DNA from: Acidithiobacillus ferridurans
GTDB lineage: Bacteria; Pseudomonadota; Gammaproteobacteria; Acidithiobacillales; Acidithiobacillaceae
Assembly: GCF_003966655.1 (NCBI RefSeq)
Contig: NZ_AP018795.1
Location: 1,939,501 to 2,003,500 of the forward strand
Reading direction: 5' to 3'
Length of the DNA: 64,000 nt
The translations under genes and the position numbers were made by a program. The notes under the pieces were generated by a model. It saw only the letters and a program-made list of their open reading frames with translations, ran no database searches and was not told the origin of the DNA. Below are positions 12,171 through 29,355 of this stretch, piece by piece (position 1 is the first letter of the stretch; every line of letters starts with the position of its first letter).

Positions 12171-13505
12171 ATGGAGCAGATCCTGATGGGAAAAGATGAA
12201 ATGTCCACTTTGGCTCCGGCAACGCAAATCTGTGACGTCCTGGTGATCGGCGGAGGGCCAGCGGGCTCCACGATCAGTGCGCTACTGGCAGGCCGGGGCT
12301 ACCAGGTGACCGTTCTGGAAAAGGCGCGTCACCCCCGCTTCCATATCGGCGAATCGCTACTTCCGGCCAACTTACCCTTATTGCAGGAATTGGGTGTTGC
12401 AGAGGAAATCCGGCGCATCGGCATGGCGAAGTGGGGCGCAGAGTTCAACTCGCATTACCATGTAGAGAAGAAACAGACCTTCTTCTTCGCCGACGCATGG
12501 GATAAATCCATGCCCATGGCCTATCAGGTGCGGCGTTCCGAATTCGACGAGATCCTCATTCGCAATGCCGAGCGAAAGGGCGCCAAGGTCACGGAAGGCT
12601 GTCGCGCGAACGCTGTGGAGTTTCTGCGCGATAACGCCGGGGTGCTGGTCCATGCGCAGCACGGGGATGGCCGCCAGGAAACCTGGCAGGCCCGTTTCCT
12701 GGTGGATGCATCCGGCCGCGATACCTTCCTGGGTAATCGTCTCAAATCCAAACGCCGCAACCCCAAGCATAACGGCTCCGCCCTCTATGCGCATTTTCGC
12801 GGTGCCCAGCGCCTTGACGGCAGGGAAGAAGGGAATATTTCGTTATTCTGGTTTGAGCACGGGTGGTTCTGGTTCATTCCCCTCGCGGACGGGACGACCA
12901 GCGTAGGGGCGGTGGTGTGGCCGCACTACCTCAAATCCAGAAGCAAACCCGTAAACGAGTTTTTTCAGGAAACCATCGACATGTGCCCCGCCCTCGCGGC
13001 ACGGCTGGTGAATGCCCAGCGCACTACCGATGTCGAGGCTACCGGCAACTACTCCTACGCTTGCGATCAAACCCATGGGCCCAACTATCTTTTGTTGGGT
13101 GACGCATTCGCTTTCATCGACCCGGTTTTTTCTTCGGGGGTCATGCTGGCCATGCAAAGCGCATTCATCGGCGCCGAGACCATCGACACGTGCCTGCGGG
13201 AGCCGCAGCGCGCCGCAGGGGCGCTCAGGGATTTCGACCGCCGGGTGCGCCACGGCGGTAAGGTCTTTTCCTGGTATATTTATCACATCAGCCAACCCGC
13301 CATGCGCGATATGTTTATGCGCTCGAGCAACGTGCTGAGGGCCAGAGAGGCGGTACTCTCGGTCCTTGCCGGAGATATTTTCCGAAAGACGCCGATTTGG
13401 CCCTCTCTTGCCGTCTTTAAGGGTATTTATTACTTGTCTTCCCTGCGTCATGCACGTCGTTCATGGGCAGCCTGGAAGCAGCGTAAAGAAGATATACGAG
13501 TATAG
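12171..13505 (+). CDS. Flavin-dependent halogenase-like oxidoreductase
   Basis: This 444-residue FAD enzyme has GGGPAGS (27-33) and GESLLP (60-65). It has the halogenase motif WFWFIP (232-237, consensus WxWxIP), a FIDPVFSSGV segment near 320, and a Lys at about 87 in a position like the catalytic Lys of halogenases. Geranylgeranyl-reductase-like oxygenases share part of this fold, but the WxWxIP motif supports halogenation. Xanthomonadins are brominated aryl polyenes, and a chorismatase of the XanB2 type is encoded 2 bases downstream, so halogenation of the polyene pigment is the best hypothesis. Several closely spaced ATGs (12171, 12186, 12201) leave the start uncertain. Confidence 0.75.
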   Translation: MEQILMGKDEMSTLAPATQICDVLVIGGGPAGSTISALLAGRGYQVTVLEKARHPRFHIGESLLPANLPLLQELGVAEEIRRIGMAKWGAEFNSHYHVEKKQTFFFADAWDKSMPMAYQVRRSEFDEILIRNAERKGAKVTEGCRANAVEFLRDNAGVLVHAQHGDGRQETWQARFLVDASGRDTFLGNRLKSKRRNPKHNGSALYAHFRGAQRLDGREEGNISLFWFEHGWFWFIPLADGTTSVGAVVWPHYLKSRSKPVNEFFQETIDMCPALAARLVNAQRTTDVEATGNYSYACDQTHGPNYLLLGDAFAFIDPVFSSGVMLAMQSAFIGAETIDTCLREPQRAAGALRDFDRRVRHGGKVFSWYIYHISQPAMRDMFMRSSNVLRAREAVLSVLAGDIFRKTPIWPSLAVFKGIYYLSSLRHARRSWAAWKQRKEDIRV

Positions 13506-13506
13506 G

Positions 13507-14580
13507 ATGACGCCAAGAGCGAACGCCTTGCTGACTGATGCGGGAGAGCTTTTTTTTTCTTATGCCCGTCCTGCCGATGACGCGTTGTCGTCACTATCCA
13601 GGCAGGAAGGTTTGCTGGGAATCATCACATTCCAAACCGGTTTTTTTGGAGAAGGGGATGGTGCCAAGCCCGAGGGAATATTGCAGATACCGTTATCCGG
13701 CCGGGGAGATGATCGATGTGAAATATGGAAGACCACGCAACCGGTGCATGCCGGGACGTTTGGTGATATTACCTACCGCTGCAGCCGCGACTTTTTGTTT
13801 GGCAGCATCGCCCTGGCCGTAGCCGACCTTCCAGCCGGCAATCATGGCCTGATTCACCTCCCTTTACAGAACGCGGCCGAACTCGCGTATCAGCAGATAT
13901 TCAGCCTGCTGGATCGCCACGGGTACCCGGGCCTGCTGCGTATTTGGAATTTTGTGCCGGACATCAATGGTGTTAGCCATGGTCTTGAACACTATCGCCA
14001 ATTCAATATAGGTCGCCAGGATGCGTTCCTTGCCCACAGTCGCCTCCCGTCGAGGCAAAACATCCCCGCAGCCAGCGCACTGGGCTCCGTAGATGGACCG
14101 CTGGTCGTATACTTTCTTGCGGCACGGCGTAACTCGGTAGCCGTTGAAAATCCCAGACAGATCAGCGCCTACCATTACCCGCAAGAATACGGGCCAAGCA
14201 GCCCGACCTTTTCCCGTGCCGGCTGGGTTGATCTAGGGCAACAAAAAATTCTCTTTATTTCCGGAACGGCCAGCATCATCGGGCATCAAACCCGGCATGA
14301 GGGGGATGTCGCGGCGCAAACACGCGAAAGCATGGCGAATATCGCCGCCGTCGTCGCAGAGACAAATCGCGTCGCGGCTGGACCCCCATATGACCTCAAC
14401 GACCTTTCCTACAAGGTTTATTTGCGGCGGTTCACGGATCTGCCGATCATTCGGGCCGAACTGGATCGTCTTGTTACACCAAAGGCTCCGGTATTTTATC
14501 TTCAGGCCGATATCTGCCGAGCAGATCTTCTGGTAGAAATTGAGGCAACCGCAGGTGTACTCCATGGCGGTATGGCATGA
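13507..14580 (+). CDS. Chorismatase, XanB2/FkbO/Hyg5 family
   Basis: This 357-residue protein of the chorismatase family hydrolyses chorismate. In Xanthomonas, XanB2 makes 3- and 4-hydroxybenzoate for xanthomonadin and ubiquinone. Family-like blocks are LRIWNFVPDINGVSHGLEHYRQFNIGR (positions about 145-171), SALGSVDGPLVVYFLA, and the C-terminal FISGTASIIGHQTRHEGD with TRESMANIAAVVAE. It starts one base after the halogenase stop and overlaps the next gene by ATGA. It would supply the aromatic starter acid for the aryl polyene chain. Confidence 0.85.
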   Translation: MTPRANALLTDAGELFFSYARPADDALSSLSRQEGLLGIITFQTGFFGEGDGAKPEGILQIPLSGRGDDRCEIWKTTQPVHAGTFGDITYRCSRDFLFGSIALAVADLPAGNHGLIHLPLQNAAELAYQQIFSLLDRHGYPGLLRIWNFVPDINGVSHGLEHYRQFNIGRQDAFLAHSRLPSRQNIPAASALGSVDGPLVVYFLAARRNSVAVENPRQISAYHYPQEYGPSSPTFSRAGWVDLGQQKILFISGTASIIGHQTRHEGDVAAQTRESMANIAAVVAETNRVAAGPPYDLNDLSYKVYLRRFTDLPIIRAELDRLVTPKAPVFYLQADICRADLLVEIEATAGVLHGGMA

Positions 14581-15380
14581 GTCAAGCCCAGGGATCGGGC
14601 ATTCCTGCTATGTTACGTACGCTGCGGGAATATCTCGCCTTCTATTGCGGATTGGGACTGTTGGCGAGCGCCAGTCTCCTGTGGTCCGTGCTGGCCCTGC
14701 CATTGAGCCTCGTACTGCCCAGGAAATGGAAAAAACGAACGGGACGACTGGTTATTACCACGGGGTTCAGAATGTACCTGCGGGCCTTGTCCATTATGGG
14801 GGCCTGCCGTTTTGACCTGAAGGCGCTGGATACGCTCCAGGGCGAATCGCCCATGATCATCGCGCCCAATCACCCTTCGCTGCTGGATGCGCTGATGGTG
14901 ATTTCCCGCATGCCCAACCTGGCGTGCATCATGAAGGCAGAGTTGGTGGATAACGTATTTTTTGGCGCAGGCGCCCGTTTGGCTGGTTATATCCGCAATG
15001 ATTCGTTACGCGGCATGATCTACCTTGCCGTGGAAGACCTACGCAGCGGCAGTCATTTGCTGCTCTTCCCGGAAGGCACCCGGAGCAACCGTCTCCCCAT
15101 CGGAACCGTACGCGGTAGCATTGCCCTGATTGCCAAGGAGGCGGGGGTGCCCGTCCAAACCGTTTTGATCGAAACCGACTCGGCGTTCCTAGCCAAGGGC
15201 TGGCCTTTTTTCCGCAAACCGGCCATGCCTATTCACTATCGAATACATCTCGGCCAACGCTTTGACCCGCCGACCGATGTGCGCGGCTTTACCGCGGAGT
15301 TGGAAAGCTACTTCCAATCGGCATTGGTGGATGCCAAATTGCCGCACCTTCCCGCAACAACGGATGTCCATTCTTCATGA
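14577..15380 (+). CDS. 1-acylglycerol-3-phosphate O-acyltransferase-like (PlsC family)
   Basis: This is a 267-residue acyltransferase with a hydrophobic N-terminal segment. The PlsC motif NHPSLLDALM, near residue 98, supplies the HxxxxD catalytic pair. FPEGTRS, near residue 164, is motif III. Aryl-polyene and xanthomonadin clusters normally encode such an enzyme to attach the polyene acid to a lipid or headgroup. ATGA overlaps at both ends tie it translationally to the chorismatase and glycosyltransferase genes. Confidence 0.87.
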   Translation: MSQAQGSGIPAMLRTLREYLAFYCGLGLLASASLLWSVLALPLSLVLPRKWKKRTGRLVITTGFRMYLRALSIMGACRFDLKALDTLQGESPMIIAPNHPSLLDALMVISRMPNLACIMKAELVDNVFFGAGARLAGYIRNDSLRGMIYLAVEDLRSGSHLLLFPEGTRSNRLPIGTVRGSIALIAKEAGVPVQTVLIETDSAFLAKGWPFFRKPAMPIHYRIHLGQRFDPPTDVRGFTAELESYFQSALVDAKLPHLPATTDVHSS

Positions 15381-16138
15381 GCGAGGCGTCGGCTACTCAT
15401 CTATTGCTGATCCCTAGCTATAATCCCGGTCCAAGAGTATATGAAACCGTGGCATTGGCGCGGCGGCAATGGAATCCCGTATGGGTAGTGGTGGATGGCA
15501 GCACCGACGGAACGGCTGCGGGGCTGGAGGCGCTGGCTGCCAAAGACAGCGGGTTACACATTTTTCAATGCACCAGCAATCAGGGTAAGGGCGCGGCCGT
15601 GCTTTTCGGTCTGGATCAGGCCGCCTCGCAGGGTTACACCCATGTGCTGACGATGGATTCCGACGGGCAGCACCCCATGGATGCCATTCGCTCGTTTATG
15701 GCAGCATCCCGGCAAAATCCGGACGCGATGATCCTCGGCGTCCCGGTCTTCGATGCCAGCGCCCCGGTCCTACGGGTAAAAGGCCGCAGGGTGTCCAACT
15801 GGTGGGCCAACCTGGAGACGCTGGGAGGGGGCATTGGTGATTCCCTGTTTGGTTTTCGCGTCTATCCCATCGCGCCGTTGCGGCAACTGATGCACGCACA
15901 ACGCTGGATGCGACGCTTCGATTTCGATCCGGAGGCGGCGGTGCGTATGTCCTGGCGTGGTGTCAGAATTATCAACATGCCAGCAACGGTCCGCTATTTC
16001 CGCGCCGATGAGGGGGGAGTATCCCATTTCCGCTATCTGCGGGACAACGTGTTGCTTACCTGGATGCACACTCGCCTGTTCTTCGGTTTTCTGGTTCGTT
16101 TGCCCGTATTGTTGTTGCGTTACTGGTCTGGGCGGTAA
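15377..16138 (+). CDS. Family 2 glycosyltransferase
   Basis: This 253-residue GT-A glycosyltransferase has the opening LLLIPSYNPGP, VVVDGSTDGT near residue 38 and TMDSDGQHPMD (the DxD-type metal/sugar nucleotide site) near residue 93. A short hydrophobic C-terminal segment (LFFGFLVRLPVLLLRYW) may hold it at the membrane. Similar enzymes occur in aryl-polyene clusters next to the acyltransferase. It is the last gene of the + strand block and overlaps the convergent antiporter gene by 19 bases. Confidence 0.85.
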   Translation: MSEASATHLLLIPSYNPGPRVYETVALARRQWNPVWVVVDGSTDGTAAGLEALAAKDSGLHIFQCTSNQGKGAAVLFGLDQAASQGYTHVLTMDSDGQHPMDAIRSFMAASRQNPDAMILGVPVFDASAPVLRVKGRRVSNWWANLETLGGGIGDSLFGFRVYPIAPLRQLMHAQRWMRRFDFDPEAAVRMSWRGVRIINMPATVRYFRADEGGVSHFRYLRDNVLLTWMHTRLFFGFLVRLPVLLLRYWSGR

Positions 16139-17466
16139 TCTGTGGTCAAACGGTTTTGCGATCGCTCGGGCATGGGAGCGGGGGCGGTCAGTTGTACCCC
16201 GGCCCGGGGTAACCATGCACGGAGAAAAGGTGTCGTGATGATGGTGCTGAAGATGGCCATGATCACCAGCATGGTGAAAACCTGCTGAGATATGGCACCC
16301 AGATCGTATCCTACATTGATGACGATCAACTCCATTAATGCGCGGGTATTCATCATGATGCCCATAACCTTGGCCTGGTGGTGGTTCAAGCCGGCGATCC
16401 GTGCCGCCCCATACGCACCGCCGAACTTGCCCACCGTCGCAAGAAGTAAGATCAGTCCGCACCAACCCCAGAGTGACGCGCTATCCAATCCGCCAATATT
16501 GGTACGCAGGCCCGTATAAGTGAAAAAAATCGGGAGAAAGAAGACCAGCACAAAGGGGGAGACCCGCTCATTCCACGCCTCCACGAATTCATTCGCGTCA
16601 TGGAGGATGACACCCATGATGAAGCCGCCAAAGATCGTAAAAATGCCCAACGAAGAGGTGATCAATCCGGAAACGAATATGCTGATCAGGATGATACCCA
16701 ATAAATGTGGGGTGAGTTTTCCTCCCGCGCTGAAACGACGGATCACCCATTTCATCAGCGGCCGAATGCCAAATATCCAGATGATGATGAAAGCGAATAC
16801 TAAAAAAACCTTGATGGCGAAGGCAATCGCCTCAAAATGGGACAGCGCCAGAGTCGTCACCAGCGCGAGCAACAACCAGCCGACGACGTCGTTGATCGCC
16901 GCAGCACTGATGGCGATGACTCCGAGTCGGGATCTGGTCATGCCGAATTCCATCATGATACGGCCGAGGATAGGTACGGCTGTAATGGAAAACGCGGTAG
17001 CGATAAATAGTGCCGATGCCCACGGTTCGGCTTGGGGAGAGAGTAGGGGCGCGCTGACCATGGCGAACCCCAGACCAAGAACGAAGGGTACCAGCATACT
17101 GGCTGCGGCCACCCATAACACCGCATTCCGGTTTGCTTTTTCTTCCAGGTGGGAAAAATCGAATTCCAGACCGATCTGAAACATCAACAGGATAAGACCC
17201 AGTTGGGAAAGGGCATCCAGGGGGCCAGCGGGGATCGAATGAAAAATGTAGTGGAAGGTGCCCGGCATCAGCAGGCCGAACAGCGACGGACCCAGCACGA
17301 TTCCGGCGATGATTTCGCCAACCACCGCCGCCTGGCCGATCCTGGTGGCGATTTCTCCACCCATGCGCGCGGCGAGTATGATGATGCTGAGTTGCAGCAA
17401 TGTGAAAAAGATCAGCAGTTCGGATTTCTGCGCGGGCAGATCAAAAACATGACTAAGCGTGCTCAT
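16120..17466 (-). CDS. CPA2-family cation/proton antiporter (Kef-type membrane domain)
   Basis: This is a 448-residue integral membrane protein with about 12 hydrophobic segments. The antiporter domain has GEIIAGIVLGPSLFG near residue 50, GLEFDF near 100, and AINDVVGWLLLALV near 190, matching the conserved Asp region of CPA2 exchangers. It lacks the C-terminal RCK/TrkA_N nucleotide-binding domain of Kef proteins. It begins 15 bases after the dehydratase-reductase fusion gene, so it is probably the last gene of that pigment operon. The linkage between ion exchange and pigment synthesis is unexplained. Confidence 0.87.
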   Translation of the reverse strand: MSTLSHVFDLPAQKSELLIFFTLLQLSIIILAARMGGEIATRIGQAAVVGEIIAGIVLGPSLFGLLMPGTFHYIFHSIPAGPLDALSQLGLILLMFQIGLEFDFSHLEEKANRNAVLWVAAASMLVPFVLGLGFAMVSAPLLSPQAEPWASALFIATAFSITAVPILGRIMMEFGMTRSRLGVIAISAAAINDVVGWLLLALVTTLALSHFEAIAFAIKVFLVFAFIIIWIFGIRPLMKWVIRRFSAGGKLTPHLLGIILISIFVSGLITSSLGIFTIFGGFIMGVILHDANEFVEAWNERVSPFVLVFFLPIFFTYTGLRTNIGGLDSASLWGWCGLILLLATVGKFGGAYGAARIAGLNHHQAKVMGIMMNTRALMELIVINVGYDLGAISQQVFTMLVIMAIFSTIITTPFLRAWLPRAGVQLTAPAPMPERSQNRLTTDYRPDQ

Positions 17467-17481
17467 GGAAAGCTCCAGGGT

Positions 17482-18693
17482 TCATGCCATGGCGCCATTG
17501 ATGGAAATGATCTGTCCACTGATGTAGGCCGCTTGTTCCGAGGCAAGAAACCCAACCAGATCGGCCACTTCCTCGGGGCGCCCGGCACGCTTCATCGGCA
17601 CCATTTGCGCGATGGCGTCAATAGGGAAGGCATTCGCGCTCATTTCAGTCGCGATGATGCCAGGCGCCACGGCGTTGACCGTAATCCCGCGGCTGGCGAC
17701 CTCCAGCGCCAGGGATCTGGTGGCCGCATGCAGCGCACCTTTGGCCGCCGAATAGTTGACCTGGCCGCGATTGCCCGTTAGTGCGGCCACCGAGGTGATA
17801 TTGATGATGCGCCCCCAACGCGTGCGGATCATGGGCATGAGTACGGCCTGCGTTACATGGAAGAAACCATTCAGTGATACGTCTATCACGCCCTGCCACT
17901 GCCGCGCGCTGAGGGCCGGGAAGACCGCATCGTCATGAATGCCGGCATTGTTGACCAGGACCTGGATGGGCCCGGCTTCGAGTTCATCCCGCAAGGCGGC
18001 AGCGGTGGCCTGTGCATCGGTGACGTCGAAAGCCAATACCGCCGCATCGCCACCCGCAGCGATGATGGAATCTGCGAGAGCCTGGGCTTTCTCTGGGTTG
18101 CGATGGGTATGGATAATGACCTGGAGACCATCTGCGGCGAGTTTTTTGCAGATGGCAGCACCAATGCCGCCGCTACCCCCAGTGACCAGGGCCCGCTTAG
18201 GCATGCGGCTCCCCCGGATCTCCGCAAGGGCGACAGGGGTATACATCGCTGCAGACGAATTGGTGTCTAATAAAAGTGCTGCGCGGCCATCCAGCAGTAC
18301 GCGGCCCTGGCCTAGAACAGCGAAGCGGTATAATAGATTGTGCTGGCCGGCCAGCTTTTCTGCCGTAATCGTGAGGTCGCCGTCGATATCATCAAGGCGC
18401 GATACGCGCAGGACAACATCGCGCACGCTGATGAGATAGCCTACCTTAGCTGCGTCCCCCCTTTCCGTTGCGGGACACAATAATGCGCCATGTACGGCCA
18501 TGGCCTGTGCCGCATATTCAATACCGCAGGCGGCACCGAGCCGCCCGTGGGCGCGTAGCGGCAATGTTTCCCATCGGTGGCTGGTGGCCGTGCAGGTAAT
18601 GGTGCTTTCATCCCATCGCTCTACAGCATCGAGCAAATGCATGCTTCCCTGGTGCGGTATTTGTCCGGCAATCCACTGGCGGTCTAGCTGCAT
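17482..18693 (-). CDS. Fused 3-hydroxyacyl-ACP dehydratase and 3-ketoacyl-ACP reductase
   Basis: This 403-residue two-domain protein starts with a hotdog dehydratase (about residues 1-160: QIPHQGSMHLLDAVERWDE, then GIEYAAQAMAVHG), as in the aryl-polyene ApeP-type enzymes. A FabG-type short-chain reductase fills about 163-403. It has TGGSGGIGAAI for NADPH binding, NNAGIHDD, and the Ser-Tyr-Lys triad in INITSVAAL and VNYSAAKGAL. In described aryl-polyene clusters these are two separate proteins. The linker (AEIRGSRMPKRALVTGG) contains a Met at the domain join, so an internal start making free reductase is possible. The start overlaps the end of the chain-length factor gene by 10 bases. Confidence 0.9.
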   Translation of the reverse strand: MQLDRQWIAGQIPHQGSMHLLDAVERWDESTITCTATSHRWETLPLRAHGRLGAACGIEYAAQAMAVHGALLCPATERGDAAKVGYLISVRDVVLRVSRLDDIDGDLTITAEKLAGQHNLLYRFAVLGQGRVLLDGRAALLLDTNSSAAMYTPVALAEIRGSRMPKRALVTGGSGGIGAAICKKLAADGLQVIIHTHRNPEKAQALADSIIAAGGDAAVLAFDVTDAQATAAALRDELEAGPIQVLVNNAGIHDDAVFPALSARQWQGVIDVSLNGFFHVTQAVLMPMIRTRWGRIINITSVAALTGNRGQVNYSAAKGALHAATRSLALEVASRGITVNAVAPGIIATEMSANAFPIDAIAQMVPMKRAGRPEEVADLVGFLASEQAAYISGQIISINGAMA

Positions 18694-19499
18694 GGTGCTA
18701 CATCCACTGCCAAATGCGGAGGATTCACGTAATCCAAGACGATGCGCCTGGCCTCGCTTCTCGCTATGGCCTGAAGCAGAGGGAGGCAGCGTGCGGCAGG
18801 AATGGATTGGCGCAAGGCTTCCAGGGCGATGTCATCCATGGCTTGCACTGCAGAGTCCGTAAATAAGTCATCTCCGCAAAAACGGAGTTGCGCGATCGTT
18901 TTCCCGGGATGAGGGGTAGCCGTCAGTAACAGCGCCACGGCAAAAGTATCCGGAACGGGGCGGGCGTCGTACAGAGGTTGGGGATAGTCGCTATCGCAGG
19001 CGATCAATAAGACGGGACGCTGCTCGCTCACCAGCAGCGTCATCGCTTCCAATAACCCGGCGGAGAAGCTCCCATCATAGGCGCTGACCACGGAGGAGGG
19101 CGTCATGGCGCCTGCCGCAATGCCCCAATACCCGGAAATGGCGTTGTGTACGGAATTATGAAACTGAGTGGGAGAAATCATGGTATCTCCTGACGCCAGT
19201 GCCGAACAGATGGCGTGGCAGATGCGGCCATCCCCTCCCGAGGAGGCAAATACCGATGCCGGATCTGCGGGGTGAACACCGGCCATGGCGCAGGCTTCAA
19301 GGCCCACCTGAAGGGCCGCCATGACTCCCGGACTGGCACGGCGCCGCTCCGCGGGTGGCAACGACGCAGGCGGCGATAATACGGTTTTCTGCTGTTGGTA
19401 GGGTGCTTGCCCGGCAAGTATGGCTAAGCCTTGCGGCCAGTTGGTGACGCCAGGGCCGAGCAGCCCCACACCTTCAAGGTATGCATTTAGCAAAGTCAT
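18684..19499 (-). CDS. Beta-ketoacyl synthase chain-length factor (ApeC-like)
   Basis: This 271-residue protein resembles the incomplete ketosynthase partners of aryl-polyene clusters (ketoacyl-synt_2 type). Segments such as VFASSGGDGRICHAICSAL, then SPTQFHNSVHNAISGYWGI and SSVVSAYDGSFSAGLLEAM, follow the ketosynthase fold. The last has Tyr where a catalytic Cys would sit, so it should be a non-condensing chain-length partner of the ketosynthase encoded 12 bases upstream. The active enzyme would be the heterodimer. Confidence 0.83.
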   Translation of the reverse strand: MTLLNAYLEGVGLLGPGVTNWPQGLAILAGQAPYQQQKTVLSPPASLPPAERRRASPGVMAALQVGLEACAMAGVHPADPASVFASSGGDGRICHAICSALASGDTMISPTQFHNSVHNAISGYWGIAAGAMTPSSVVSAYDGSFSAGLLEAMTLLVSEQRPVLLIACDSDYPQPLYDARPVPDTFAVALLLTATPHPGKTIAQLRFCGDDLFTDSAVQAMDDIALEALRQSIPAARCLPLLQAIARSEARRIVLDYVNPPHLAVDVAPCS

Positions 19500-19511
19500 G
19501 GCCTCGATTCG

Positions 19512-20705: not shown

Positions 20706-21012
20706 GTGTCTTATAAATCATAATAATAGATGATATGAACATTGTGATTGGGCGACCGATGAATGTCAAACCGAGCTCAACGGCTGCCTATAGGGATGGT
20801 AGGGAGGCACAGCAGCGCGGATGGATGGGCTGCCTCGCTTGGGGGCAGTATCCACCGATTGTGAACCAAGTAGCAATCTGGGGTAGAATTATAAATAAAA
20901 GTGGAACCGAGCGGGCACCTCTGTCCTCCTGCCGGAGGCGCTGGATCGTATCGCCCGGGGCGTATCGTTACCTGGTGCGCTGTTAAACATAACGCAATGG
21001 AGACTATCAAAT
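20706..21012. other. Divergent intergenic region between ketosynthase and ACP genes
   Basis: These 307 bases separate two divergently transcribed pigment genes and should hold both promoters. AT-rich stretches lie next to the ketosynthase start (about 20708-20745) and near 20885-20900. No clear operator repeat or RNA element was recognised. Confidence 0.4.
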
Positions 21013-21279
21013 ATGTACAGCCTTACTCCCCAGGAACTGGAATTAAGTGCTTTAATAATAGCGGCACTGAATCTTCCCGTGGATCCGCAGGACATTGATC
21101 CTGAAGCGCCATTATATGGTGGAGCATTGGGGCTTGATTCCATTGATATTCTGGAGATATCCATGGTCATAGGAAAAAAATACGGATTAATGATATCAAG
21201 CGACAACGACAACAAGGTGGAAATATTTAGTTGTTTGCGCAACCTCTGCACTTATGTGCAGGCGCATAGGTCCAACTAG
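21013..21279 (+). CDS. Acyl carrier protein (aryl polyene)
   Basis: This 88-residue acyl carrier protein has the phosphopantetheine site GLDSIDILE, with Ser at about residue 42, and acidic helices around it (DPQDIDPEAPLYG). Aryl-polyene clusters usually encode two carrier proteins, but only this one is visible here. It is alone on the + strand between two minus-strand pigment operons. The Shine-Dalgarno site is weak (TGGAGA, about 13 bases upstream of the ATG). Confidence 0.88.
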   Translation: MYSLTPQELELSALIIAALNLPVDPQDIDPEAPLYGGALGLDSIDILEISMVIGKKYGLMISSDNDNKVEIFSCLRNLCTYVQAHRSN

Positions 21280-21352
21280 AAAATCCTTTCCGCGCCCGCC
21301 GTAAGCGGGGAGCATCTGGCGTTTGGTCCGGAGCGCTTTGGGAAGCTAGGGA

Positions 21353-23707
21353 TCAAACGGTCGTGTGTTGGGAAAAACTGGCAGAGAATAACAACGCTAG
21401 AACGACACCGGGTGCAACGGTGGCACCGATGGCCTGTAGTACAGGAACCCCGGAAAAAGCGAGCGGCCCAAATCCCATGACGGTGGCAATATTGGCGATG
21501 ACCAGGGAGGCCAGCGTACGCGGGGCGATCTCCCCATGGACCTGCCTGTCACCTTGATCAAAAAAGAGTGCATAGTTTGATCCGACAGCGACGATCAGCA
21601 TAAGCCCAATCAGGTTCATAATATTTAGCTCATATCCAAGCAAGACAAGCCCGGCGGCCACCGTCAGGACGGCTGCAATTAAAGGTAGCAGTATCCTCGT
21701 GACCCGCATCGGGGAGCGCAATACGAGCAATAATAGTAAGGCAATGGAAACGACTCCCGCCAATGATAGCTTAATCCCATTTATCAGATAACTTTTATAC
21801 AATTGATTCGATGCGCCGGACAAGTCGACGAGCATGGCACCTGTGATATGGTGCCGGGCAAGGCTGGCACGCACGCGCTGCGCGTCCACTATGCCCGAAG
21901 CGGGTGCTTTGAGTGGTAGAATGGCGTCCCACCCGTGGCCGTGGCGGATAAGCATGCTGTTTACCACCATCCCGATACTGGTGCCGCGCAGGTCGGCAAG
22001 GGTTAGGGGCGTGAGTGTGCGCTGCACCTCGGATTCCTTGATGAACGGCGTGAACAGCGAAGCTTTTACTGGTAGACCAAGCAGGGCTTTACGCAAACGC
22101 CTTTCCAGCACGTCTTTTGGTGGGATCGCCGCTTGCCGCTCCTGTTGCAATGTGACGCTCGGCAGGTACCGGGCGGGACTCTCATAGCCGGCAATGACGT
22201 GATTTTCTACCAACCCCTGTAGCGCATTGCCGGTCTTTTCGGCCACAGCCAGCGTAGCGTTGACGGTGGGTGCAGAAACGACGACCAGATAACCGCCCTC
22301 GGATACGCCCAGGTCAGCGCGCATTTGCGTATAGAGTCGTTGCGCTGCCGCCGGGACGGGGCTCAGCGCAGACAGGTTGTAGTTCCAAATCTTGTCGCGA
22401 TGGCTGACGAGGACAGCGCTCGCCGCGATCAGTAGCAACACGACGCCAGACCGCAGGGTGAAAAGGGTTCGTGTCAAGCGCAGCAGATGTTCGCCAATAC
22501 TGCTTAAATCCCGTGATTTAAAATTGCCGGGTAGCAGAGTTGGTAGTACCAGCCGGGTAACAATTGCCGCAGTGAGAAGCCCGGCAATTGCGTAAAGGCC
22601 GAGTTGTGCCAGTCCCGGTAAATTTGAAAACAGCAGACTGGCAAATCCGATGATCGAGGTAAGTACCCCTAATCTGATGGTCGGCCAGTACTTGCGTATC
22701 CATTCGTCATTTCCTGTTGCAGATTGTCCGGACTGCACAAAAAAATAAATGGAATAATCTACCGCTTCGCCAATTAACGCCGTTCCAAAACCCAGAGTGA
22801 TATCGTAGACAACAGAGAAACCAAGCGCTACTGCGGAAATTCCGACGATTATTCCGGAAAATACTGGTAAGAGACCCAGAATAAGCACTATTCCGGAGCG
22901 GTATACGAGCAATAGCAGTATAATTATAAGCGTTATACTGATGGTGGACATCCACTCGGCTGCATGGACGATGGCGTCGCGAGAGGCTACCGAAATCACC
23001 CCGACGCCGGTCATCATCAAGGTGGTGTTCGCGGCTACGGACCCCGCTTCCGACTTCGCGACGGCGAATGCCGTCTGTATGTCGTTGATTGCTGCCTGCT
23101 GGGCATTCATAGCGGAACCGGAAGCTCGGGTTTGTGCCAATATCAAGACACTTTTGCCGGAACGCGAGGACCACACTCCGTCGCGGGTCACTGGTCTCAC
23201 CCCGCTTCCCATGGACCGGATCATCTGCACAGTGGCCCCGGTAGGATCACTAGGGAGCAACGACTGAACCATCTCTCCGCCTGGAGTGGCCAACATGTCA
23301 ATGGAATCGGCAATGGCATTGTGTAGTCCGGCAACTGTAAAAAGTGTCGGGTTGACGGTGGGGCTCAACAAGTAACGATGAGAAAAAATATAATGAAATA
23401 TTTTGGTATCACCATTGCTGCTGCCGTTGTTGAGGGACAAAAAGGCGGTGTTACCCTGAAGCTTCCGGACCATCTCATTGGAGAGCTTGGCGCGTATGGC
23501 AGCATCACCGCCATCAATGCGGATCATGATTTGGCGTGATAGGATGCCCTGACGTAATTGTTCGTTCAGGACCGCTTGCTGCGTGGTGGGCGACCGAGGC
23601 AGAAATTCCGAAAGATTTGCTGTGAATTTGGTGGTGCTGATCAATAAGCCACCGGCAAGCAAAATAGCCAGCCATGTTGCAATGATGAAAACGCGGTTTT
23701 TCCTCAC
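21353..23707 (-). CDS. MMPL/RND-family exporter of the aryl polyene cluster
   Basis: This 784-residue membrane protein has the two-half RND layout: an N-terminal transmembrane helix, a large periplasmic loop, five to six helices (from about residue 255), then the same pattern again from about 425. TLGFGTALIGEAVDYSIYFF near residue 310 and MLIVAVGSNYALFFDQGD near residue 705 carry the conserved helix-4 acidic/polar positions. Such proteins move the polyene lipid from the inner membrane towards the outer membrane. It overlaps the LolA-like gene by 4 bases, matching the exporter-carrier pair of known clusters. Confidence 0.87.
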   Translation of the reverse strand: MRKNRVFIIATWLAILLAGGLLISTTKFTANLSEFLPRSPTTQQAVLNEQLRQGILSRQIMIRIDGGDAAIRAKLSNEMVRKLQGNTAFLSLNNGSSNGDTKIFHYIFSHRYLLSPTVNPTLFTVAGLHNAIADSIDMLATPGGEMVQSLLPSDPTGATVQMIRSMGSGVRPVTRDGVWSSRSGKSVLILAQTRASGSAMNAQQAAINDIQTAFAVAKSEAGSVAANTTLMMTGVGVISVASRDAIVHAAEWMSTISITLIIILLLLVYRSGIVLILGLLPVFSGIIVGISAVALGFSVVYDITLGFGTALIGEAVDYSIYFFVQSGQSATGNDEWIRKYWPTIRLGVLTSIIGFASLLFSNLPGLAQLGLYAIAGLLTAAIVTRLVLPTLLPGNFKSRDLSSIGEHLLRLTRTLFTLRSGVVLLLIAASAVLVSHRDKIWNYNLSALSPVPAAAQRLYTQMRADLGVSEGGYLVVVSAPTVNATLAVAEKTGNALQGLVENHVIAGYESPARYLPSVTLQQERQAAIPPKDVLERRLRKALLGLPVKASLFTPFIKESEVQRTLTPLTLADLRGTSIGMVVNSMLIRHGHGWDAILPLKAPASGIVDAQRVRASLARHHITGAMLVDLSGASNQLYKSYLINGIKLSLAGVVSIALLLLLVLRSPMRVTRILLPLIAAVLTVAAGLVLLGYELNIMNLIGLMLIVAVGSNYALFFDQGDRQVHGEIAPRTLASLVIANIATVMGFGPLAFSGVPVLQAIGATVAPGVVLALLFSASFSQHTTV

Positions 23708-24420
23708 GGCGAAGGTGACTTGGTGATGGTGATCAGGGAACGATCGCGATTCGTTTTCAATGTTTCGATGCTGGTTACCGAATTGTTGCTACCGTTGACC
23801 TGAATATATTGAACCAGATCCGCCAACTTTTTTTGTCTGGGCAGCATCGTCAGAGTCCAGTTTCCCTCGCTGCCGCTCAAAGAAAGACGAAAGAATTGCT
23901 TCAGCATCTGCTGGTTCCCGGTCAACGTGCCACGTATGCTATCGATAAATGCCAATAATTCCGGATGATCCTGCAGATGGATATCCTGGTGGTCGATGGT
24001 GAGCACGTCGCCTTGTATGAGCATAAGCTCATTTTTTGGCTTGAGGGTGTGCATCTCCAAGCTGTCCGGGGCTATGAAACGTAGCCTACCAGATGATTCT
24101 ATGGGTTTCTCCAGCATGGTCAGGAATTTTTTCTCGACGAATGTGGCGCGGCCGGGTTTGGTATGTGCCAAGGACTGCATCAGATGATCGATATTCCATT
24201 CCGATGCCTGAGCTGCAGCCGTCGTCAGCATCGTACTTAGGCCCAGGAGCATCAGCAGGGTCACCGCCCCGAAATGGAAGGAGGTCCGGCCAGAAGCTGC
24301 CGCGAGTGGGGGTGTACTGCGTAACGTCTCCTGGTCCTTGAGAACGCCCTTTCCCAGGTGCGCCACGAGTATTCCTAGCCGGGTGTCCGGCAGTTGCCGG
24401 AGCACTTTAGATATGGCCAT
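23704..24420 (-). CDS. LolA-like outer membrane lipoprotein carrier family protein
   Basis: This 238-residue protein belongs to the LolA-related group found in aryl-polyene and xanthomonadin clusters. The mature part (EWNIDHLMQSLAHTKPGRATFVEKKF, then SSGRLRFIAPDSLEMHT) follows the LolA beta-sheet pattern. A signal peptide (VTLLMLLGLSTMLTTAAAQA) starts only at about residue 52. The first 50 residues are therefore either an unusual extension or the true start lies inside. The periplasmic product would ferry the pigment lipid released by the MMPL protein. Confidence 0.77.
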   Translation of the reverse strand: MAISKVLRQLPDTRLGILVAHLGKGVLKDQETLRSTPPLAAASGRTSFHFGAVTLLMLLGLSTMLTTAAAQASEWNIDHLMQSLAHTKPGRATFVEKKFLTMLEKPIESSGRLRFIAPDSLEMHTLKPKNELMLIQGDVLTIDHQDIHLQDHPELLAFIDSIRGTLTGNQQMLKQFFRLSLSGSEGNWTLTMLPRQKKLADLVQYIQVNGSNNSVTSIETLKTNRDRSLITITKSPSP

Positions 24421-25037
24421 CAGACTGCTCCCTAATCTTATTGCCAGAAGTCAAAAAAATTAAACCAGTTATAAGGTGCCATATGACAGTACTTCTCCAA
24501 CAGGCTGACGTACTTTTCCATCGCGCGATGCACGACTGCTTCCCGTTCGTCTCGTTCGACCTCAGTGAAATCAGCCAATTGTTCAAGAAAAATTTCATAT
24601 TTCCCCGGTCCGGTATGCAGCCCGACCATAAAGAAAATCGGTCTGCGCAAGATCACCGCCATCCGGAAGGGCCCGCTGGGCCAAAGGGCGGGCTTGCCCA
24701 GGAAGGTGATGGACTGCACCTTCTCCTTACCAAAAGAGCGATCACCCAGCAGACCAACCAATGCGCCGTTTTCCAGTTCTTCTTGAACGCGGATCATCGA
24801 ATCCATACGGCCAGGGGGTATGATATTTTGTTCGGCCATCGGATTGATGGCTGAAAGCATCGCATTTAAACGCTGGGCGTTTTGCTCATACATCACCATG
24901 ACCACGCGGGGACCAGGAGGGTGCCGCTGGCCAACCCCCCTTAGCACCTCAAAACTGCCGAGATGTGCCCCAAGAAGCAATACCCCTTGTCCGGCGGCAA
25001 CGGCCGTGTCGATAGCCTCTAGCTGATGTACATGTAT

Positions 25038-26586
25038 CTGAAGTTTAGACATGCAGCCTCCTCGCCAGCTTCTATGTGTGGCGATATGGCGTAGTAAATG
25101 TGGAGCAGGATTGAGTCAGGCGACCTTTTTGCGGGGTGGGTCATCGGTATCGGCCCAAAAGGCGGGGGCGGGGCACTGGAATTTCCCGGACTTCGGGTCG
25201 TAGCCCTTCCAGAATGGAACCCGCAGAAATTGCAGATGAAGCCATTGGGCCATGAGTCCTGCGGTGACAGGAGTAGCGATACGCCAGGGCGCTACTGCAG
25301 TCATGGGGAAATCTTCGGATAGGGTTTCGGCGAGGAGTTGCACCATGGACCAAGCGATGCAGCGGATTTGCATCCAGCGTTCCAAGACGGTGCGTTTTTG
25401 CTGCCAGAGGTTATGGATGCCCCACCAGCGTTTGAGATTGTGGAAGATCGGTTCGATCTGCCAGCGGTTGCTGTAGAGGACGACGATTTCGCTGGCGGTG
25501 AGATCCGTCTCGGAAGCGAGATAGAGGCGGGTGGGAGACCACCGATGATGCTTTTCATCGTAGATCGCACTCCATACGGCACGGACCGGATGGCCGTTCA
25601 GGAATCGTGCATTGGCGATGATGGATTGAAGACGGACCTTCTGCCGTTTCCCATAGAGATCCAGAGAGACGATCTCGGTGGGCAGCGCAGCCATGTCTTC
25701 CACGGTGTACTTGTTTCCATATATCCGAGGACGCCCGCGTTGGGATGTCCTCGGCGGTGGGTCGCGGAGCAGTACAGTATCTTTGCGCACCTGGCCGATG
25801 AACTGGCCTGCCGGCTGCAGGCCGTGCTGACGCAACAGGGGCAAGAGCAGGCGCCGCCGCATGAACCAAGCATCGGTGAGCAACCGGACGGGTACGGGGA
25901 TGTGGGGTATAAAGGCGCGCAGCAATGCTCCGGCGATTTTCAGCTTGTGGGTGTTGCCGGTACTGGGCACCAGGCGCAAGCGGATGGGAAAGGAAATGGC
26001 TTTGCCGGAACGGGTACGCAGGGTCAACGCCAGACCCACCCAATTCTGGGCGAGGACATAACTGGGGCGGTTGTGCTTATGACTGTGGTCGAAGCGGATG
26101 GCCGCGCCTGGGGCCTTGGTAGAGTGCCGCAGGACCATCGTGTCGTCGACGACTAACTCGACGATCAGGGGCTTGGGCAAGGACTGCAGGAGCCAGCGTA
26201 CCTGGGTTATGGCCAACGCCTGTGTACGCAAGGACGCACGCTCCAGGAGTTTGTAATAGGTGGTCCAGTGGCAGCGGAGGGAGATGCTGCTGAGGGCGCG
26301 GGTGACCCAGCCTTCGGGCGAGATCAGGCAACCGCAAAGCAGCTCCACAAAACTGCGCCGCGAGCGGGGCGGCACGACCGTCAGAAAGTAGGAAATCCAC
26401 TCCGAGAGGCGGAGGGCAACGAGACGATGAAAGGGCATGACAGTGATTCCGAGAAGCCTAAAACGCTTCTCATTGGCCGACCCTTTTTTACAAGGGTCGG
26501 CCGCACGGCACTATCACTGTGTCAAGCACTTTCGTAGCAAAAATAGAAAAAACCCGGCGGAGCCGGGCTGTATGTCTAAACTTCAG
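25038..26586 (-). mobile_element. Complete 1549-bp IS, copy 2 (IS4-like DDE group)
   Basis: This has the same length, terminal repeats (CTGAAGTTTAGACAT / ATGTCTAAACTTCAG), transposase and leader hairpins as the copy at 7722-9270. It is flanked by its own 9-bp target duplication, TACATGTAT (25029-25037 and 26587-26595). Different target duplications show two independent insertions. It carries the same GC-rich terminator hairpin (26553-26567). Confidence 0.95.
25116..26438 (-). CDS. IS transposase, DDE (IS4-like), copy 2
   Basis: This 440-residue transposase has the same sequence as the one at 7800-9122, including the DDT, TDAWF and YSNRWQIEPIF catalytic segments. It is intact. Insertion is on the minus strand, the same direction as the interrupted acyltransferase gene. 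Confidence 0.93.
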   Translation of the reverse strand: MPFHRLVALRLSEWISYFLTVVPPRSRRSFVELLCGCLISPEGWVTRALSSISLRCHWTTYYKLLERASLRTQALAITQVRWLLQSLPKPLIVELVVDDTMVLRHSTKAPGAAIRFDHSHKHNRPSYVLAQNWVGLALTLRTRSGKAISFPIRLRLVPSTGNTHKLKIAGALLRAFIPHIPVPVRLLTDAWFMRRRLLLPLLRQHGLQPAGQFIGQVRKDTVLLRDPPPRTSQRGRPRIYGNKYTVEDMAALPTEIVSLDLYGKRQKVRLQSIIANARFLNGHPVRAVWSAIYDEKHHRWSPTRLYLASETDLTASEIVVLYSNRWQIEPIFHNLKRWWGIHNLWQQKRTVLERWMQIRCIAWSMVQLLAETLSEDFPMTAVAPWRIATPVTAGLMAQWLHLQFLRVPFWKGYDPKSGKFQCPAPAFWADTDDPPRKKVA

Positions 26587-26918
26587 TACATGTATGTCAA
26601 AGAGATCGAAACGATTGTTGAGCAAATCAACGCGATCATGGATCGTTGCAGAGAATGTTAGAAAATGGCGATATATTTGCCAGATATGTGCGGGTCGGCC
26701 GAGCACCCGCGTGAGGTACGCTCGAGATGATCGCCTGGCCGTTGGCGCAAACAAGAGAAAGTATCCGGCGATCAGATGCAATATGACGCGGGCCTGGCGG
26801 CGGCCCAGCTTCATGGAAATCCAGGTGATTACCCGTAACATGGCCGTGCTTCCGCGCTCCGGATACTGTGCCCAGGATGGCTGGTTCGGGGGTATGGACG
26901 CCTGGTCTGTGGGGAGCA

Positions 26919-27239
26919 TCAGCAGGTTGAGGTCTTTGCGGCAGGAGATAGATCACCAGCGGCTATCCTGCGGTTGTTCGCGCGGATCTCAAAGGCGATG
27001 GACGCATCTGCTCCCGTATCGAAACATAGTGTCAGCACCTCCCCGGGAGATGCAGGGCTGTAAAATTTGGCCATGGTAATATGGCCCCCTGTCATCATCG
27101 CTTGCCCAGTCGTAGACTCCACCGTATGAATGACCTCGTCAATAAGCATTACGCCGGGAACGATGGGATGCCCCGGGAAATGACCAGCAAAGACCGGATG
27201 TTGCGCGGGGATGCTGAATAAAACTTCATGGTGTGCCAG
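26919..27239 (-). CDS. ApeI/FabZ-like 3-hydroxyacyl-ACP dehydratase
   Basis: This is a hotdog dehydratase-like protein of about 106 residues: HHEVLFSIPAQHPVFAGHFP, then PGVMLIDEVIH, with GHFPGHPIVPG as the FabZ active-site strand. No ATG, GTG or TTG lies at the natural N-terminus. AAGAGGAG ends 7 bases before a CTG at 27239, and the protein then reads (L)AHHEVLF, so a CTG start is proposed. The only canonical in-frame start (27329) would add 30 residues encoded inside the ligase gene. It overlaps the end of the AMP-ligase gene and the start of the acyltransferase gene, so it is a coupled operon member. Confidence 0.75.
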   Translation of the reverse strand: MAHHEVLFSIPAQHPVFAGHFPGHPIVPGVMLIDEVIHTVESTTGQAMMTGGHITMAKFYSPASPGEVLTLCFDTGADASIAFEIRANNRRIAAGDLSPAAKTSTC

Positions 27240-28587
27240 GATTGTTCTCCTCTTTATGATGGAGCGCAGTGACCAGCAACTGAAGCGCTTCGTGCGGTAA
27301 TTTTCCGGTATTGTTACGCGGTAGCGCATCTACAATCTGTAGTGGCCGGGGAAGAAATGCCGGATCGATGCGCTCACGCAGCCTGGCGTAAATCGAATGA
27401 GCATCTACTCCCGGTGCCACAACAAATGCAATCAAGCGCTTTACGCTGCCCGCAGCGCCGTCGTCGGGCATAAAAAATACACCATCTTGCACCTCTGGGA
27501 TGGAATTAAGCTGATGGTTTAGATAAGCCAGAGAGCTGCGTTTGCCCGCTATATTGACAAGGTCAGCGGTTCGACCATGAAGAAGAAAACGCTCATCGTT
27601 AATAATCTCCAGTCTGTCGCTGAGTTCCGTTGCTTGTTCCACATGCCCACCGCTTGCCCACACGCGCCCAAGTTGCGACGTCAAGCGCAGTTCTGGCAAT
27701 AACGACCATTCATCGGTTTCCGCACTGCGCCGGGTGGCAATCTGGCCCGTTTCAGTGGATCCGTAGATTTCCTGCAGAGGGGCATCGAAGCGGGTTTCCG
27801 CCTCTCTGGCCAGGTCTTGAGTCAATGGAGCCGTAGCGGAAATCAGCAAGTCGGCAGGTGGCAAAGGAGAATCCATACCCAATAAAGCGCGGAGGTGAAT
27901 TGGTGTGCTCACCAGTAATCGTGGTCGTGGCAGCAATGAAAGTTCAGCGCAAATATCCGCAGGGTAAAAATATTGCGGCGCACTGAGCGCACCTCCGCAT
28001 TGTAAAACGATCAGTATGGTTGATTCGAAGCCGTACATATGTTGTGGTGGAACGGTACCAAGCACCGCATGTGTACGGCCATCAAGTAAGCCCAGACGCT
28101 GGGCTTCGGCGCGGACGCTTCCTACCAGTGCGCCCCAGGTTTTCAGATGGGGAACCGGGCTTCCGGTGGATCCGGAAGTGAATACATAACTTACCGGTAG
28201 GGTTTCCGGAAGGAGGGGGATCGGCAGATTGTGATTTGCCGCCGATACGGGCGGGTCTTCAGGTAAGGAAAGTTGAGGTAGATCTATATCGTTATCACCA
28301 TCGCTGAGGCAAAACACATCCGGAGCGAAGCGGACCATCTGACGGATGGTTTCGTCTGTATATGTAGACGGCAACAGGCTTATTTTGTTGGCAGTCATGG
28401 CCGCAGCAAGACCTACCATGAAGCGGTAACGGTCACGGCAAACGTTAAGAACATGTTTCCCCGGAAGAAGTATGGCACGAAGCTGTGCTACGTCCGCTAA
28501 GAATTGATGTACGGTAATTGCTTCGCCATGACGAAATGCTACGACATCGCTCGCGGATTGATGGGTCATCAAGGGGAGGCGGTTCAT
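27226..28587 (-). CDS. AMP-dependent acyl-ACP/CoA ligase of the aryl polyene cluster
   Basis: This 453-residue adenylate-forming enzyme has the P-loop-like TSGSTGSPVPHLKTW near residue 137, EIYGSTETGQIATRR near 275 and LLHGRTADLVNIAGKR near 345. The C-terminal NNTGKLPHEAL includes the catalytic Lys. It is shorter than classical acyl-CoA synthetases but of the usual size for aryl-polyene ligases. It should activate the hydroxybenzoate starter and load it on the ACP. It follows the COG4648 gene by 27 bases. Confidence 0.88.
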   Translation of the reverse strand: MNRLPLMTHQSASDVVAFRHGEAITVHQFLADVAQLRAILLPGKHVLNVCRDRYRFMVGLAAAMTANKISLLPSTYTDETIRQMVRFAPDVFCLSDGDNDIDLPQLSLPEDPPVSAANHNLPIPLLPETLPVSYVFTSGSTGSPVPHLKTWGALVGSVRAEAQRLGLLDGRTHAVLGTVPPQHMYGFESTILIVLQCGGALSAPQYFYPADICAELSLLPRPRLLVSTPIHLRALLGMDSPLPPADLLISATAPLTQDLAREAETRFDAPLQEIYGSTETGQIATRRSAETDEWSLLPELRLTSQLGRVWASGGHVEQATELSDRLEIINDERFLLHGRTADLVNIAGKRSSLAYLNHQLNSIPEVQDGVFFMPDDGAAGSVKRLIAFVVAPGVDAHSIYARLRERIDPAFLPRPLQIVDALPRNNTGKLPHEALQLLVTALHHKEENNPGTP

Positions 28588-28614
28588 GGCCGGAGGTTGC
28601 CCATTGACTGAATA

Positions 28615-29355
28615 TTACCGTAGTGGACTGGGTTTGTTATTGCGCGATTGCTGTTTGCTCATCGCGCTCTTGCTGGAATAATGGAAATAGGCACGAAGTC
28701 CTTCCACCATTCCGGAACGCTCCCCTGCAGGGATGGTGCAACAGCGAACGATGTACTCAACCAACAACATGGATACCACCAGCGTCAGGGAAATGGTATT
28801 AGTCAATATGAATAATAATTGATGTGGCGAAAATATAAAAATAATCGGGGGCAGGGCTGTCATCGTGGCGAAGAGAAATGTCCAGGCCATGGTCACATGT
28901 CGAGTATAGCGCGCCACCTGTTCACTCAGGGGTCCATGAACCAGGTCGGCAATTCGCGATATCATGGGGGTGCGCCCGGGAAGCAAAGTGACACCGAATA
29001 CCATAGCGAATAGTGCGAAAATGCCACTCCTTTGAATCAGGTACGTCCAGTTTAAGTAGTGCACAAGAATGGTTTGGTAATGCCACAATGCCATACATCC
29101 AGCAATGACAGAGATGAGGCCGATAACTCTGTAACGCATGCGCCACGATATAAATAAAAAAACAATAATGACGGGTGCGAAGGTGGACACCACTACCAAT
29201 CCACCCGGGTGGGCCGAAGAGATCCCCCGGTAAGTGAGTATTTGGTAGCCGACAAAAACAAATAAGGAGAGCGCTACGCTCCCGTACTTTGCCAACCTGC
29301 TGGTTGTCAAATTCCGACAAAATAGTTTAACGGTTTGGTTGCGCAGAGGTTTCAC
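28615..29355 (-). CDS. COG4648-type membrane protein of the aryl polyene cluster
   Basis: This 246-residue protein has about six transmembrane segments: around residues 25-45, 52-72, 78-95, 110-130, 155-180 and 183-203. The SGIFALFAMVFGVTLLPGRTPMISR and VARYTRHVTMAWTFLFATM blocks match the membrane protein encoded at the same place in aryl-polyene clusters. Its precise role is unknown. It is the first gene of the minus-strand operon running through the ligase, dehydratase, acyltransferase, LolA-like and MMPL genes. Confidence 0.75.
   Translation of the reverse strand: MKPLRNQTVKLFCRNLTTSRLAKYGSVALSLFVFVGYQILTYRGISSAHPGGLVVVSTFAPVIIVFLFISWRMRYRVIGLISVIAGCMALWHYQTILVHYLNWTYLIQRSGIFALFAMVFGVTLLPGRTPMISRIADLVHGPLSEQVARYTRHVTMAWTFLFATMTALPPIIFIFSPHQLLFILTNTISLTLVVSMLLVEYIVRCCTIPAGERSGMVEGLRAYFHYSSKSAMSKQQSRNNKPSPLR

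Follow-up and report, generated by a model that had tools for sequence, protein, structure and literature searches.

In Azoarcus sp. BH72, the arcuflavin pigments are encoded by the gene sets arcA-L and arcM-X, which lie at two unlinked loci (available sections of PMC3949708). The same sections report that ArcB produced 3-hydroxybenzoate (3-HBA) in vitro and that arcuflavin was labelled upon feeding of 4F-3HBA. An antioxidant role has been reported for this class of pigments. Here we analyse a stretch of 64,000 nucleotides from Acidithiobacillus ferridurans JCM 18981, the type strain of an iron bacterium that lives in mines (contig NZ_AP018795.1, positions 1,939,501 to 2,003,500), referred to as the window, and all coordinates below are positions within it. 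The locus at 11330-29355 is very likely a xanthomonadin/arcuflavin-type aryl polyene cluster, a known kind of locus for yellow membrane pigments, the copy of which in this strain has been hit by a transposon; this reading includes the chemistry predicted from the gene set. Among the matches listed in a search of the open-licence literature, we found no paper on an aryl polyene or xanthomonadin of Acidithiobacillus, and neither ‘aryl’ nor ‘polyene’ occurs in the main text of PMC9734747.

Gene content and extent of the cluster

Family searches of the locus recovered an AMP-ligase, an acyl carrier protein (ACP), a ketoreductase, two dehydratases, a LolA-like protein and an MMPL-type exporter. The ketosynthase adjoins a half-size chain-length factor (half-CLF) at 18684-20705, with NF006618 above its cut-off and a match to PF13723. 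The features of the locus are the following.

11330-12094, + strand: polysaccharide deacetylase, arcN-like (PF01522), located upstream of the flavoenzyme in Acidithiobacillus relatives
12171-13505, + strand: ArcA-type flavoenzyme with the fold of flavin-dependent halogenases (PF04820; Lys87, W232-x-W-x-I-P, F315xxPxxSxG, GGGPAG, WFWFIP)
13507-14580, + strand: XanB2/ArcB-type chorismatase (TIGR04444, PF21168); Met at 13507 chosen as start over a TTG at 13366
14577-15380, + strand: glycerolipid-type acyltransferase, arcD-like, intact (PF01553; NHPSLLD motif)
15377-16138, + strand: family-2 glycosyltransferase, arcE-like (PF00535)
16120-17466, - strand: Na+/H+ antiporter, arcG-like (PF00999; arcG is in the Azoarcus gene table)
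17482-18693, - strand: dehydratase (residues ~1-158) and 3-ketoacyl-ACP reductase (~164-403) in one frame (NF004200 above cut-off; FabA/FabZ-type profile match)
18684-19499, - strand: half-CLF protein of the arcJ / Lysobacter ORF16 type (PF13723)
19512-20705, - strand: ketosynthase, arcK-like (NF006618 above cut-off; SSACSSS)
21013-21279, + strand: ACP, solitary on this strand (NF006617 above cut-off; PF00550)
21353-23707, - strand: MMPL/RND-type exporter (PF03176)
23704-24420, - strand: LolA-like periplasmic carrier (PF19574, LolA_3; the flexirubin LolA2 model NF053544 below cut-off)
24438-25037, - strand: LpxL-like acyltransferase, C-terminal part (PF03279 positions 104-291 of 295; HLGSFE, HX4E)
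25029-25037 (left copy) and 26587-26595 (right copy), no strand: target-site duplication TACATGTAT, flanking the insertion sequence
25038-26586, - strand: IS701-family insertion sequence (IS) of 1549 bp with terminal inverted repeats CTGAAGTTTAGACAT (NF049999 above cut-off; transposase at 25116-26438)
26569-26551, - strand: terminator-like stem with T run within the IS, on its polyene-operon entry side (pattern match only)
26587-26919, - strand: LpxL-like acyltransferase, N-terminal part, 111 residues ahead of the IS (by comparison with relatives)
26919-27329, - strand: ApeI/FabZ-like dehydratase, arcS-like, start uncertain (PF07977 above cut-off; PF22818, ApeI, below cut-off)
27226-28587, - strand: AMP-ligase, arcT-like, presumed 3-HBA:ACP ligase (PF00501, PF13193)
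28615-29355, - strand: conserved protein in the arcU/ApeG position, next to the AMP-ligase and without family match

The gene set is close to that of the Azoarcus arc clusters, which bears out the original prediction, made from the sequence alone, of a xanthomonadin-type aryl polyene cluster. Nearly all of the core functions listed there were recovered, and the isolated position of the ACP, on the + strand, is confirmed. The extent of the cluster needs correction: its start had been placed at 12171, but the deacetylase, which is conserved in relatives and listed in the arc table, lies outside that boundary and begins the cluster earlier. Both this gene and the Na+/H+ antiporter had been omitted from an otherwise largely accurate list. 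The last open reading frame (ORF) is assigned to the arcU position because it adjoins the AMP-ligase on the same strand in all 14 named loci that hold both genes (80 loci examined). The half size of the CLF protein was considered as a second truncation and ruled out, as half size is its normal form in the Lysobacter and Azoarcus clusters. A search of positions 9000-32000 against Rfam gave no match at gathering thresholds.

A transposon splits the LpxL-like acyltransferase

The transposase of the IS at 25038-26586 belongs to the IS701 family (NF049999, 475 bits against a cut-off of 170), and the element has the 9-bp duplication TACATGTAT on either side. It separates 111 N-terminal residues of the LpxL-like acyltransferase from 199 C-terminal ones. 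The corresponding open frame spans 317-342 residues in all ten other Acidithiobacillus genomes that have the gene (16 others searched) and 225 residues here. When the IS and one duplication are removed, an unbroken frame of 307 residues results, which aligns with the protein of the close relative G006, where the gene is intact. At E <= 1e-15, a search of this genome with the C-terminal part brought up nothing besides the split gene itself. Thus, of the two acyltransferases expected by the original prediction both are recognisable, but one is split. The locus lacks an intact second (LpxL-like) acyltransferase and the relatives possess it, so that the type of locus is unchanged and this copy is damaged.

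The genome contains nine exact copies of the 1549-bp element, each with a target duplication of 8-10 bp, as well as one copy of 89% identity and fragments. Because all nine copies are identical, recent movement of the element is suggested. One of them lies in the window at 7722-9270, with target duplication ATTCAGAGT, and seven further exact copies are found elsewhere in the genome.

Judging from the position of the transposon within the acyltransferase, an intact lipid-anchored pigment is unlikely in this strain, and lipid anchoring of the polyene is probably impaired. In E. coli, mutants in either acyltransferase gene, apeD or apeJ, retained partial colour and made late intermediates, which were interpreted as wrongly anchored (PMC8253772, available text). 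By analogy, the split gene would be the counterpart of ApeD or of the ApeJ acyltransferase half. In addition, the hairpin inside the IS may lower LolA and MMPL transcription, so that expression of the export genes may be reduced.

A single frame for dehydratase and ketoreductase

In close relatives, the stop codon of the dehydratase gene overlaps the start of the reductase gene. Here one A has been lost in GGGAGG, and because of this 1-nt deletion the two form a single frame of 403 residues. A native fusion is ruled out by the separate frames in all 49 loci that hold both parts (six more loci hold one part only). Both dehydratases of the original prediction are therefore present, one of them in frame with the reductase through the deletion. 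The dehydratase portion alone gave no Pfam match at E 0.01. A 19-sequence profile, built from the dehydratase and 18 relatives, matched the FabA/FabZ-annotated dehydratase structure 6qsr_B (E 1.4e-8); we take this chain to be ApeP. The reductase part has dN/dS values of 0.09 and 0.12 against the close relatives G006 and G007.

Distribution and conservation

Flavoenzyme, chorismatase and LpxL-like acyltransferase co-occur in the same 11 of the 17 Acidithiobacillus genomes searched, and the cluster type is present in these genomes and in many Betaproteobacteria. Across an evenly drawn sample of the class, the flavoenzyme was matched in 54 of 377 genomes at 1e-40; 32 of these (own genome included) have at least 44% identity and the rest at most 37%. 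Another gene of the polyene cluster was found by BLAST within ~1.5 kb in 27 of 29 loci from this sample (L121-L149). A named scan, from which the best 80 of 375 confirmed relatives were kept, includes loci of Polaromonas, Thiobacillus, Sulfuriferula, Thiomonas, Azoarcus and Zoogloea. On these 80 loci, which are of unequal length, homologues were found of the chorismatase (57), the first acyltransferase (73), the glycosyltransferase (71), the deacetylase (49) and the antiporter (28), the last two of which are also conserved in the Acidithiobacillus relatives. This wide occurrence across the genus, the class sample and the named loci indicates that the system is common and conserved. For the measured cluster genes, which comprise the fused gene by its reductase part, dN/dS ranges from 0.08 to 0.50 against G006 and G007, which argues that the cluster is not a chance assembly.

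Chorismatase and starter unit

The chorismatase scores 244 bits against TIGR04444, the FkbO/Hyg5/XanB2 family, below the cut-off of 325 bits, and lies above the cut-off of PF21168. It has Ala, Gly, Cys and Glu at the positions of Gly173, Gly240, Cys327 and Glu334 in Hyg5, and 80, 81, 81 and 81 of 81 family rows, respectively, agree with these residues in an alignment of sequences with about 250 or more aligned residues. A fixed offset of nine positions, our own assignment, links this numbering to that of Nat-hyg5. The corresponding Gly, Gly and Cys are described as the characteristic residues of CH-II enzymes, and Glu334 as the active-site acid (PMC7170507, in the text available). Where Hyg5 has Gly240 and Cys327, FkbO carries Ala, whereas the chorismatase of the window keeps Gly and Cys; the enzyme of Azoarcus sp. 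L1K30, like that of the window, departs from Hyg5 at the first Gly, which is Ala. Because nearly all family rows share this Ala, a CH-III enzyme appears likelier than a CH-II enzyme. The protein falls inside the FkbO/Hyg5/XanB2 family and shares its signature residues with almost all rows, in agreement with the XanB2-type chorismatase of the original prediction. The hydroxybenzoate priming proposed there gains support too: since the enzyme groups with the XanB2/ArcB type, a 3-HBA starter is well supported.

The ArcA flavoenzyme

GxGxxG, WxWxIP, Fx.Px.Sx.G and the catalytic Lys of variant B flavin-dependent halogenases are all present in the flavoenzyme, as is the fold, and the WxWxIP motif pointed out previously is confirmed; these motifs are not discriminating. 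According to the text available of PMC8407142, some halogenases lack WxWxIP, and Fx.Px.Sx.G may occur in all active ones. WxWxIP was dismissed as proof of halogenation, as distant relatives share it: among the 19 that could be read (of 20; L161 was read in the wrong frame), a count by eye gave Lys and WxWxIP in all 19 and FxxPxxSxG in 17. The halogenase-type motifs are thus general to the wider family of ArcA, which is not to say that non-halogenases carry all of them. An ArcA homologue with 62% identity is encoded in Azoarcus sp. L1K30.

An AlphaFold model of the protein has a mean pLDDT of 79.9 and a pTM of 0.83. Compared with this model, the halogenases FasV, Bmp2, ChlB4, PltA, Mpy16, CndH and RadH give Z-scores of 41.3-46.2, and CmlS, with 37.4, lies amid monooxygenases at 37.6 or less. 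In a tree of 75 selected rows, ArcA forms one clade (92/99) that meets the CndH/FasV group and the PltA/ChlB4 group at a fork in which no nearest neighbour is separated. Together with these groups, it is set apart from two geranylgeranyl-reductase rows and 12 distant relatives by a branch with a support of 86/92, which is not strong. The deep forks are weak because the three outgroup rows sit on very long branches and a LodB-like row falls beside FasV; LodB (NF038171) had one match below cut-off in 143 genomes, which served only as outgroup. Among the same number of genomes, QhpG (NF049967) had no match, and as the controls were unmatched too this is uninformative. Identity as a geranylgeranyl reductase was rejected, since TIGR02032 scores 120-121 bits, below its cut-off of 158.8, and the flavoenzyme is placed apart from the two reductase-like proteins of the genome by the branch mentioned above. 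The available portion of PMC8269204 contains nothing on the ArcA clade.

Alternative explanations

That the polyene is brominated or chlorinated, with ArcA acting as a carrier-protein-dependent variant B flavin halogenase, is a real possibility that we hold tentatively. It agrees with the invariance of Lys87, WxWxIP and FxxPxxSxG in all 119 ArcA-family rows (112 distinct; window included; loci with about 380 or more aligned residues, less L119, L120 and L150), with the nearest solved sequence matches, which are halogenases (CndH at 1.4e-61, ChlB4, FasV, Mpy16 and PltA), with the model, which is closest to the seven halogenases named above, and with the tree, in which ArcA lies on the side of CndH, FasV, PltA and ChlB4, though the branch is not strongly supported. 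Furthermore, xanthomonadins are brominated and a halogenase gene is found in Xanthomonas clusters (PMC3691225). Nonetheless, arcuflavin is nonbrominated although Azoarcus arcA is annotated as a halogenase gene (PMC3949708, in the sections available), a comparison in which the BH72 protein is likened to ours by annotation only. The generality of the motifs, the uncharacterised structure 3nix at second rank (Z 46.1), and the region ahead of the Lys, which is one residue shorter in ArcA than in four aligned halogenases, also speak against halogenation. The same nonbrominated arcuflavin favours a non-halogenating flavin monooxygenase that would hydroxylate the aryl head or the polyene, which we regard as possible, if somewhat doubtful. 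Here QhpG sets a precedent, being a monooxygenase with a halogenase-like fold and with Trp181 and Trp183 in its channel (PMC7876137, available part), and p-hydroxybenzoate hydroxylases come next in fold score (Z ~36-37). Most characterised halogenases score higher, however, and a hydroxylase would not obviously need the invariant Lys. Because the motifs are general to the family and arcuflavin is nonbrominated, halogenation is better regarded as a reasonable hypothesis than as ‘probable’, the word used in the original prediction. The combined proposal that ArcA homologues are real carrier-dependent halogenases and that A. ferridurans JCM 18981, with its acyltransferase knocked out, accumulates a free halogenated polyene acid seems unlikely.

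Two other explanations concern the acyltransferase and the chorismatase. At the exit end of the IS (25038-25052), an outward AGGAGG-CTGC-ATG is in frame with the acyltransferase remainder, and a product of 204 residues translated from this IS-borne ribosome-binding site and ATG, four bases apart, would retain HLGSFE and span most of PF03279. It would miss ~110 N-terminal residues, and an outward start at the end of the IS is in frame in one of three cases by chance; that the acyltransferase still works in this form is quite improbable. It is highly improbable that the chorismatase makes a ubiquinone precursor instead of the pigment starter. Xanthomonas XanB2 does provide 4-hydroxybenzoate (4-HBA) for ubiquinone (PMC5069965, available text), but within Acidithiobacillus the chorismatase shares its distribution with the pigment genes (the same 11 of 17 genomes), and since the UbiC family occurs in 17 of 17, including the six that have no cluster, the enzyme is not needed for that purpose.

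The reading of the locus as an aryl polyene cluster damaged by a transposon is preferred over these alternatives on the gene set and its conservation, but several observations weigh against parts of it. The ORF in the arcU position has no Pfam or NCBIfam match, which leaves the COG4648 label of the original prediction unconfirmed. The weaker dN/dS values belong to the LolA gene (up to 0.50), the N-terminal part of the acyltransferase (up to 0.44) and the arcU-position ORF (up to 0.45). The acyltransferase split was seen only in this genome, the one genome of the species covered. The remaining acyltransferase fragment keeps HX4E and is preceded by the IS-borne AGGAGG-ATG, and some activity is therefore possible. 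As for the hairpin, 26 terminator-like sites were found in the stretch, where shuffled sequences gave an expectation of 18.0 (sd 4.5), and the LolA-like gene is dispensable for pigment in Lysobacter (PMC3691225), so that polarity may matter little. Finally, the 1-nt deletion in the dehydratase-reductase gene may be real or may be an indel error of the PacBio-only assembly.

Proposed pathway

We propose that the chorismatase would provide 3-HBA, which the AMP-ligase would load onto the lone ACP. Ketosynthase and half-CLF, together with the ketoreductase and the dehydratases, would then build the aryl polyene, and the ArcA flavoenzyme would modify the aromatic head, either ACP-bound or in the finished molecule, by halogenation or oxidation. 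The acyltransferases and the glycosyltransferase would join the polyene to a lipid, and LolA- and MMPL-type proteins would move the lipid-linked polyene to the outer membrane. In the relatives, the cluster should make a 3-HBA-primed aryl polyene. In JCM 18981 the assembly genes are open and polyene assembly probably persists; with the LpxL-like acyltransferase cut after ~111 residues and a possible decrease in LolA/MMPL transcription, the likely outcome is a polyene that is made without proper anchoring, or in smaller amount.

Other features of the window

Upstream of the cluster, an ORF of 105 residues at 10738-11055 resembles the N-terminal part of HsdM (PF12161) and is possibly the remnant of a restriction-modification gene. 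Two adjoining genes for ClC-type chloride channels or transporters are located at 34222-37471 on the - strand (PF00654). A near-identical direct repeat of ~380 bp occurs at 37260-37640 and 46649-47029, 9.4 kb apart, and overlaps the beginning of a ClC-type channel ORF (- strand) at one site and that of a LysR-type regulator ORF (+ strand) at the other. Three P-type ATPase ORFs are found at 42559-45087, 47998-50490 and 52075-53619, with a sigma-70-family ORF (45611-46570) among them.

Implications and comparison with known systems

Within Acidithiobacillus, species with an intact and with a transposon-broken acyltransferase share an otherwise conserved cluster, which makes the lipid-attachment step comparable between them; the same contrast allows comparison of the value of the pigment in acid and metal stress. 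As lipid attachment is likely impaired, JCM 18981 would be a poor strain in which to seek an outer-membrane antioxidant pigment, and species that keep the gene whole, G006 among them, would be better choices. If ArcA is indeed a halogenase, the aryl polyene of an iron-oxidising acidophile would be halogenated. For readers of genomes, the locus also carries a caution, in that a list with all core functions present may conceal a split gene.

The ApeA-R system of E. coli CFT073 shares with the window the core enzyme types and transport by LolA-like and RND proteins, but differs in its 4-HBA start, two ACPs and a methyltransferase, and in a gene table without chorismatase or halogenase (PMC8253772, available text). 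The cluster of Lysobacter enzymogenes OH11 has in common the half-CLF/ketosynthase pair, a XanB2 homologue, a LolA-like protein and two dehydratases; unlike the window, it has no halogenase gene, and its pigment is non-brominated (PMC3691225). The pig/xan clusters of Xanthomonas, compared by description only, have a XanB2-type chorismatase and the half-CLF with ketosynthase, and a halogenase gene in two Xanthomonas species.

By listed function, the Azoarcus BH72 arc genes shared with the window are the flavoenzyme arcA, the chorismatase arcB, the acyltransferases arcD and arcR, the glycosyltransferase arcE, the Na+/H+ antiporter arcG, arcH-K (reductase, dehydratase, half-CLF and ketosynthase), the deacetylase arcN, and arcP, arcQ, arcS, arcT and arcV, among which are the exporter, LolA, second dehydratase, AMP-ligase and ACP. 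The methyltransferase arcM, arcC, arcF, arcL, arcO, the DAR genes and regulators were unrecognised among the 20 Pfam-scanned ORFs, the rest of the genome not being searched. In contrast to the two unlinked loci of Azoarcus BH72, the cluster of the window lies in one locus, with the second acyltransferase split by the IS and the dehydratase and reductase fused.

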